A DNA stretch of 58,535 bases from Candidatus Enterococcus testudinis (lineage in GTDB: Bacteria; Bacillota; Bacilli; Lactobacillales; Enterococcaceae). Position 1 is the stretch's first letter. Each line of letters starts with the position of its first letter. This document shows positions 15,801 through 17,946 of the stretch, in pieces. The stretch lies in contig NZ_NGKU01000001.1 in NCBI RefSeq assembly GCF_002140915.1, positions 2,616,130-2,674,664 of the forward strand. Reading direction: 5' to 3'. A program made the position numbers and the translations under genes. A model generated the notes under the pieces. It did not search any database. It was not told where the DNA came from and saw nothing but the letters and a program-made list of their open reading frames with translations.

Positions 15801-16688
15801 TTAATTGATTTCTTTATTGGTTATCCGCATATTAATCAATGAAAAAACAAATATAATCATAAATAATATAAATGAAAGTGCCGAAGCATAACCCATTTCT
15901 AAACCACCAAAGCCTTTATTATAAATATAGTAAACGAGTGTTATGGTTGAATTCCCTGGTCCTCCTTTCGTCAACATATAAGCTTGATCAAATACTTGAA
16001 ATGCGCCAATTACCAATTGCGTGCTAACTAAGAAGGTTGTTTTTGATAGTTGAGGCCAAGTGATTCCTTTAAATTTCTGCCATCCATTGGCCCCTTCGAT
16101 ATCTGCAGCTTCATAAAGAGCAGGATTGATTCCTTGAAGACCAGCCAAAAAGATCATCATATTGCCCCCAAAACTCATCCACACACTCATGATCACGATG
16201 GCAGTCATCGCCCAATTGGAACTGTAAAGCCATGCCGGTCCGTTAATACCTATCAGACCTAGCAATTGATTCAACAACCCATATTGAGGATTCAATAACC
16301 AATACCAAATTGTTGCGGTAGCAACTGAGGAACATAATACGGGAAAATAAAAAAATACTCTAAACATACTGGATGTCCGTACTTTTCGATTGAGCAACAT
16401 AGCTGCTATCAGAGACACAATGAGTCCTAACGGGACATATAATAGTGTATACACAGCAGTATTTCTAAGTGATATAAAGAAGAATTCATCTTGAAAAATT
16501 CTGGTAAAATTTGAAAATCCAACCCAATTTGCTTTTTCTATAATGTTATAATCCGTAAAACTATAGTACAGCGCCATAATAATTGGGATAATCACAAAAA
16601 CGACTAGCAGAATGACAGGAAATAAAATAAACAGATACGCGATATTTTGCTGCTCGTTAATTCCTTTTTTCTTCTTCGATAATTCCAT
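15801..16688 (-). CDS. CUT1 ABC sugar permease, MalF-type
   Basis: 295 residues with six membrane segments and the EAA loop (LYEAADIEGANGWQKFKGITWPQLS). First gene of the importer operon, with GGAGG 7 bases before its ATG. The upstream region is interrupted after about 40 bases by the sequencing adapter at 16729-16766, so the real promoter may be incomplete or displaced in this assembly. Confidence 0.92.
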   Translation of the reverse strand: MELSKKKKGINEQQNIAYLFILFPVILLVVFVIIPIIMALYYSFTDYNIIEKANWVGFSNFTRIFQDEFFFISLRNTAVYTLLYVPLGLIVSLIAAMLLNRKVRTSSMFRVFFYFPVLCSSVATATIWYWLLNPQYGLLNQLLGLIGINGPAWLYSSNWAMTAIVIMSVWMSFGGNMMIFLAGLQGINPALYEAADIEGANGWQKFKGITWPQLSKTTFLVSTQLVIGAFQVFDQAYMLTKGGPGNSTITLVYYIYNKGFGGLEMGYASALSFILFMIIFVFSLINMRITNKEIN

Positions 16689-16712
16689 TATCCGACCTCC
16701 TTCAATAAACCA

Positions 16713-16726
16713 TTAATACATATTAA
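16713..16726. promoter_or_regulatory. AT-rich inverted repeat upstream of the mannoside importer, left of the adapter
   Basis: TTAATA-CA-TATTAA. A related palindrome lies at 16798-16811 on the other side of the adapter. Both could be operators for the divergent GntR/LacI-type regulator; this is inference. Confidence 0.35.
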
Positions 16727-16728
16727 AC

Positions 16729-16766
16729 CTGTCTCTTATACACATCTAGATGTGTATAAGAGACAG
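16729..16766. other. Nextera mate-pair junction adapter (two Tn5 mosaic ends); assembly artefact
   Basis: CTGTCTCTTATACACATCT (16729-16747) is exactly the 19-base hyperactive Tn5 mosaic end, and AGATGTGTATAAGAGACAG (16748-16766) is its reverse complement directly abutting. This 38-base arrangement is the circularisation junction of Nextera mate-pair libraries and is not expected in a natural genome. No transposase or IS50 sequence is nearby. Sequence to the left and right may come from points kilobases apart in the real chromosome. Confidence 0.95.
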
Positions 16767-16797
16767 ATATTTAGTCGTTTTATACTTGCAATTATTA

Positions 16798-16811
16798 TTA
16801 AATATATTTAA
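16798..16811. promoter_or_regulatory. Perfect AT-rich palindrome upstream of the GntR/LacI-type regulator
   Basis: TTAAATATATTTAA is a perfect palindrome about 40 bases before the regulator start. It may be an autoregulatory operator, but in AT-rich DNA such a palindrome could also arise by chance. Confidence 0.35.
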
Positions 16812-16851
16812 TATATAATTAAAGATTCTAAGTAAGAAAAGAGGGATATGA

Positions 16852-17946
16852 TTGAATAAACCACTTTATCAAGCTATCTATGAAACATTGCGTGACCAAA
16901 TCGAATCGGGCGTTATTTCTATTGATCAAGTCTTACCCACTGAAAAAGAACTGGCCAATTCATATAACGTGAGCACGATCACTGTAAAAAAATCATTAGA
17001 CCTATTAAAAGAAGATGGGTTTATTGTACGTAAACCTCGAAAGGGCTCGGTTGTCATCAATAACCAAAAAACTGATTACACAGAAACAAAAAAAATCGTT
17101 GGTCTGCTGATCACGAACTTTACAGACTTTTTTGGCGCACAAATATTACGAACTATCATAAAGAGCCAAGAAGAAGAAATCCATTTCATCGTTAAAATCA
17201 GCTATGGAGATCAAGAAACAGAAAATATCTTGATTCAAGAATTATTGGAAATCGGTGTACAAGGATTAGTTCTATTACCCACGTCTTCAGAATATACATC
17301 CCCAAAAATTCTTGAACTGATTTCAAAAAACTTTCCAATTATTGTAATTGACCGTTTGATGGCAAATCTGCCCATATGCAGTGTACAAACAGATAGTTTT
17401 AATGCTGCAAAAGATTTAACCAATTACCTTTTCAACAAAGGACACGAAAAGATTGGACTGATTGCTTCAGATAATAGCGTTTCAACTATTGATGAACGCA
17501 TCAATGGTTTTTTAGCTGCTCATATTGACCAAAACCGTGCTGTTAGTCAAAATCAAATATTGTCTCTCATTGACTCTGTTGTACCAAACTCTTCTCGAAG
17601 CATCGAGGAGGATGTTGGTATTATACGTACTTTTTTGATGAATAATCCACAAGTTACCGCCCTGTTTACAACTGAGTATAATATTGCGCTTCTTGCCAAA
17701 AGCGCAATCGAAGAAATGGAAAAGCAAGTCCCAGAAGATTATTCAATTGTCTGCTTTGACCATCCAGCAGCGAATATATTTGATCTTCATGCATTTGTGT
17801 TTACACATATTGAGCAAGACCAAACTGCGATCGGAAAGCATGCTGTTGAGGTATTAAAAAAGAAAATGATTGACCCAAAACTAATAGAGAAAGTTAACCT
17901 AGACTATAAACTGGTTTCAGGTCACTCTGTGAAAAATTTAGAATAA
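16852..17946 (+). CDS. GntR-type HTH / LacI-type sensor hybrid transcription regulator
   Basis: 364 residues. Residues 1-70 form a winged-helix GntR domain (LPTEKELANSYNVSTITVKKSLDLLKEDGFIVRKP). Residues 80-360 form a periplasmic-binding-protein-like sensor as in LacI/AraR (IVVIDRLMANLPICSVQTDSF, NKGHEKIGLIA). This domain order is that of AraR-type sugar regulators. The start is TTG at 16852, with GAGGG 6 bases upstream; the ATG 4 bases earlier is out of frame and stops at once. It is divergent from the mannoside importer operon and probably controls it in response to a sugar, but the adapter between them means this adjacency needs checking. Confidence 0.85.
   Translation: MNKPLYQAIYETLRDQIESGVISIDQVLPTEKELANSYNVSTITVKKSLDLLKEDGFIVRKPRKGSVVINNQKTDYTETKKIVGLLITNFTDFFGAQILRTIIKSQEEEIHFIVKISYGDQETENILIQELLEIGVQGLVLLPTSSEYTSPKILELISKNFPIIVIDRLMANLPICSVQTDSFNAAKDLTNYLFNKGHEKIGLIASDNSVSTIDERINGFLAAHIDQNRAVSQNQILSLIDSVVPNSSRSIEEDVGIIRTFLMNNPQVTALFTTEYNIALLAKSAIEEMEKQVPEDYSIVCFDHPAANIFDLHAFVFTHIEQDQTAIGKHAVEVLKKKMIDPKLIEKVNLDYKLVSGHSVKNLE

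Follow-up and report, generated by a model that had tools for sequence, protein, structure and literature searches.

In the mate-pair method, genomic fragments of kilobase size receive a 19-base mosaic end from Tn5 at each of their two ends. When such a fragment is circularised, its ends meet back to back as a palindrome of 38 bases, and reads that run across this junction need to be trimmed. The mosaic end was derived in the laboratory from the ends of Tn5; the target duplication of Tn5 is 9 bases long. Nextera mate-pair kits presumably use exactly the 38-mer described below. In a passage of PMC7357533, these 38 letters are given as the sequence of a biotin-labelled ring adapter that circularises fragments of about 4 kb, which, according to that source, were made by ultrasound. 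Passages of PMC6298255 describe tagmentation with biotinylated Nextera mate-pair junction adapters and trimming by NxTrim; the adapter letters are absent from those passages.

The window, a stretch of 58,535 bases, belongs to an assembly of 3.20 Mb in 3 contigs. Positions 16729-16766 consist of two perfect 19-base Tn5 mosaic ends placed head to head, which together form a 38-base palindrome: AGATGTGTATAAGAGACAG was found at 16748-16766 on the forward strand and at 16729-16747 on the reverse strand, with 0 mismatches in each copy and with the copies directly abutting. These were the only two matches to AGATGTGTATAAGAGACAG in the window at up to 3 mismatches, compared with a mean of 0.04 in dinucleotide-preserving shuffles, none of which reached 2 (n = 100). 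No transposon body lies between the two ends. The exact overlap between the end of the left flank and the beginning of the right flank is 0, so the 9-base target duplication is absent from this site. An earlier note, made from the letters alone, had placed two back-to-back 19-base ends at 16729..16766, without a target duplication, between an importer and its presumed regulator; the coordinates proved exact, the missing duplication was borne out, and the site is intergenic, with a permease ORF (-) on one side and a regulator ORF (+) on the other (Table 1). In a search of 16600-16900, the one terminator-like hairpin found was the adapter palindrome itself. A promoter scan of the same interval gave no signal (1 promoter-like site, against a shuffle mean of 1.9).

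Table 1. Coordinates of the adapter halves, their neighbours in the window and the further adapter blocks of the assembly
Feature	Position	Strand	Basis
ABC transporter permease (BPD_transp_1), left neighbour	15801..16688	-	ORF; Pfam PF00528, E 5.2e-14
Divergent intergenic region	16689..16851	.	ORF starts and congener alignment
Tn5 mosaic end, 19 bases, first half of the adapter	16729..16747	-	Exact match
Tn5 mosaic end, 19 bases, second half of the adapter	16748..16766	+	Exact match
Regulator with GntR DNA-binding and LacI-type sugar-binding domains, right neighbour	16852..17946	+	ORF; PF00392, E 3.8e-17; PF13377, E 6.2e-17
26 further adapter blocks in 20 other regions of contig C1	211440, 320136, 498833, 542589, 632599, 974542, 984729, 1019559, 1051403, 1224306, 1490650, 1548552, 1618670, 1638049, 1878189, 1919787, 2032181, 2157943, 2260919, 3143830

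The same sequence recurs through the assembly. When up to 2 mismatches are tolerated, it contains the mosaic end 45 times, and a control pattern (the same letters read backwards) 0 times. These copies make up 27 adapter blocks in 21 regions: 15 are perfect 38-mers, 4 are palindromes trimmed to 35-37 bases, and 8 are single halves. For all 27 blocks, the exact overlap between the left and right flanks was measured, and further copies of the flank ends were looked for within 2 kb on either side. Exact overlaps of 27, 35, 42, 42, 68, 86 and 95 bases were found in 7 of the 27 blocks; in another 3, the sequence on the right begins anew from a point 101, 106 and 110 bases upstream, with no exact match that reaches the block. 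One block (3143830) has an overlap of 9 bases and one has an overlap of 5, and the other 15 of the 27, the window block among them, have no such overlap. In five overlap-free blocks (542589, 984729, 1618670, 1618739 and 2260919), the left end is found again at a distance of 95-969 bases to the right. Runs of N present in some of the examined regions were not counted as evidence of gaps. The overlaps are of read-length scale and variable, unlike the fixed duplication of a transposon; they would fit contig ends that should merge and are held apart by the adapter. Several of the 26 further blocks have duplicated flanks, and false repeats or gene breaks are possible there.

The exact 38-mer was found in none of the 5 congeners and in 2 of 105 genomes of the family, namely the window's own assembly (15 copies) and G041 (71 copies), and was absent from the other 103. 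The match coordinates in G041, for example 90616 and 304427, coincide with those in Enterococcus sp. 10A9_DIV0425 (NZ_NGMO01); the window would accordingly belong to that organism's family, presumably Enterococcaceae. In named genomes, a scan revealed the exact 38-mer in at least 108 stretches from at least 18 assemblies of very different groups, including, among the matches listed, cyanobacteria, Streptomyces, Rhizobium and Collinsella. It also stands in three records with chromosome titles (CP017948.1, NZ_CP051236.1 and CP051244.1), one of them described as a complete sequence. In viral contigs (IMG/VR), the 38-mer was present in 7 stretches, 4 of which lie 10 bases or less from a contig end. 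Five enterobacterial plasmid records gave adapter-sized matches, of 38-45 bases at the best place.

Four of the 20 other regions (2032181, 211440, 1051403 and 2260919) were compared with the congeners. For 2032181, a single adapter-free stretch of the congener G004 matches the two flanks at 97-98% identity; within it, the aligned flank pieces overlap imperfectly, by 21 bases. At 211440, the left flank matches G004 (98%) up to the adapter and the right flank matches just a 33-base piece elsewhere, which reflects a misjoin or else a genuine difference between strains. At 1051403, the match of G004 to the right flank (83%) begins about 90 bases past the adapter, and the left flank gave partial matches only, at 67-80% in several places. 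At 2260919, two other congeners (G001 and G003) match just a piece whose end lies some 337 bases to the left of the adapter. Misjoins at some sites other than that in the window are thus possible.

Read together, these observations make it very nearly certain that 16729-16766 represents a Nextera-type mate-pair circularisation adapter left in the assembly. This reading, which the earlier note had already proposed, is supported by the exact 38-mer, its recurrence in 27 blocks, its absence from all 5 congeners, its presence in at least 18 assemblies of very different groups, its identity with the adapter printed in the passage of PMC7357533, the overlaps at other joins, and the one empty site in G004. 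Some junction-crossing reads would have stayed untrimmed, and the adapter would have entered the assembly when these reads served to join contigs or to close gaps; for the window we infer this joining step from the other sites, its own flanks showing no overlap. There, the adapter would have replaced, or would hide, part of a native AT-rich spacer between correctly neighbouring genes. These 38 bases almost certainly arose as an artefact of the assembly and serve no biological function.

A natural origin would require paired Tn5/IS50 ends, or a miniature inverted-repeat element derived from them, that is mobile in the strain. The many copies in one genome would suit such an element, as would the exact 9-base flank repeat at block 3143830, which has the length of a Tn5 target duplication. 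However, a 9-base repeat is present in only 1 of the 27 blocks, exact overlaps elsewhere range from 0 to 95, and single halves and trimmed copies occur as well. Moreover, an identical 38-mer in very different assemblies, together with its absence from nearly all the family genomes, speaks against an element of this strain, as does the orthologous site of 2032181, empty in G004 with its imperfect 21-base overlap. A search for the Tn5-dimerisation family PF02281 gave 0 matches in the genome, but also 0 in all 14 control genomes. We consider this origin extremely improbable; natural transposon ends were rejected on the grounds of the abutting ends, the missing duplication at this site, the variable overlaps elsewhere and the diversity of the carrier assemblies. 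More far-fetched still is a genuine family of palindromes, 38 bases long and built from two Tn5-type ends, that spread recently across the chromosome by mobilisation and is identical to the adapter by mere chance. Another laboratory source is ordinary Nextera paired-end tagmentation, with read-through into its adapter instead of a mate-pair junction. The 8 of 27 blocks that are single 19-base halves could be explained in this way, but the other 19 are back-to-back pairs (15 full and 4 trimmed), and paired-end adapters are not expected to make such pairs. In addition, no index-adapter sequence was seen when the flanks of the 8 single halves were read by eye, and paired-end read-through is very improbable as a source of the site.

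The remaining alternative is a chimeric misassembly, in which two distant parts of the genome were joined through a mate-pair junction read. An untrimmed read of this kind could yield such a join, and at site 211440 G004 matches the left flank and not the right. For the window, however, the congeners argue otherwise. The region was matched in 2 of the 5 (G002 and G005), and in both a single, continuous alignment of 3.2 kb at 72% identity spans the permease, the spacer and the regulator, with the two genes adjacent and in the same divergent layout. As G002 and G005 are nearly identical at the locus, they amount to little more than one witness. Neither of these two congeners carries the 38-mer at the orthologous site; G004 has no match at the window locus, hence no empty-site control there. 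Furthermore, among the candidates scored in the assembly that contains the window (40 of 54), the flanks were found nowhere else, except for matches based on the adapter plus a few bases beside it and one 31-base, self-inverted, AT-rich match. A distant chimera at this site was rejected because of the gene order conserved in G002 and G005, and its probability is small, if not quite as slight as that of paired-end read-through. The concern, raised in the earlier note, that the two sides might lie apart in the real genome is thus unsupported at the level of genes. To judge from the relatives' gene order, the permease and the regulator are most likely true neighbours, and the doubt at the window site concerns the exact bases between them. 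Interval 16200-17300 of the window was found in 2 of the 5 congeners (67% over 1.1 kb) and has no match in G004, which elsewhere is 97-98% identical at two other sites and 83% identical at a third, with no match at a fourth; it is possibly an accessory region.

Beyond the permease lie a second permease, a solute-binding protein, a GH76-type protein, a GH125 alpha-mannosidase and a GH65 protein, and "mannoside importer" is a reasonable predicted name for the neighbouring transporter genes. The regulator ORF opens with a TTG start. From start to start, the spacer measures 163 bases as assembled and 125 without the adapter, compared with 201 in G002 and G005, a length taken from coordinates with the aligned TTG and ATG starts. 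About 76 native bases may therefore be missing at the join, perhaps including one arm of an inverted repeat. The shorter spacer is also possible as a natural difference in length, the relatives that have the locus being just 72% identical. In these relatives, the spacer contains two AT-rich stretches that are inverted relative to each other. The right stretch is kept in the window, and the window's left flank ends near the expected beginning of the left one. Positions 16799-16816 match the relatives' left stretch, inverted, at 17 of 18 bases, an AT-rich match that is weak alone (E 0.12). The inverted repeat of the spacer may have broken the assembly at this point. An AT-rich near-palindrome lies at 16797-16822, upstream of the regulator, and a second, inverted copy stands across the spacer in the two congeners. 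The two copies, whose match is weak, are possibly a paired operator for the GntR/LacI-type regulator.

The significance of the site is limited to data quality. Calls of promoters, operators or terminators in 16689-16851 are unreliable because the adapter is the lone terminator-like hairpin and native bases may be missing, and the adapter hairpin should stay unannotated. The 26 further blocks could create false gene ends, false repeats and false strain differences. Scans of public genomes for palindromes or mobile elements should screen out the 38-mer, which also affects finished-looking chromosome records and viral contigs.

Among known systems, the window site agrees with the circularisation adapter as printed in the passage of PMC7357533 in all 38 letters, with no difference, whereas some other blocks of the assembly differ from the full adapter in being trimmed copies or single halves. 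With Tn5/IS50 ends it has the 19-base mosaic end in common, but it lacks a body between the ends and a 9-base duplication. The same exact 38-mer stands in several places per assembly in Enterococcus sp. 10A9_DIV0425 (NZ_NGMO01), Scytonema tolypothrichoides VB-61278 and Collinsella ihumii GD8, and the number of perfect copies differs between carriers, with 15 in the window's assembly and 71 in G041.
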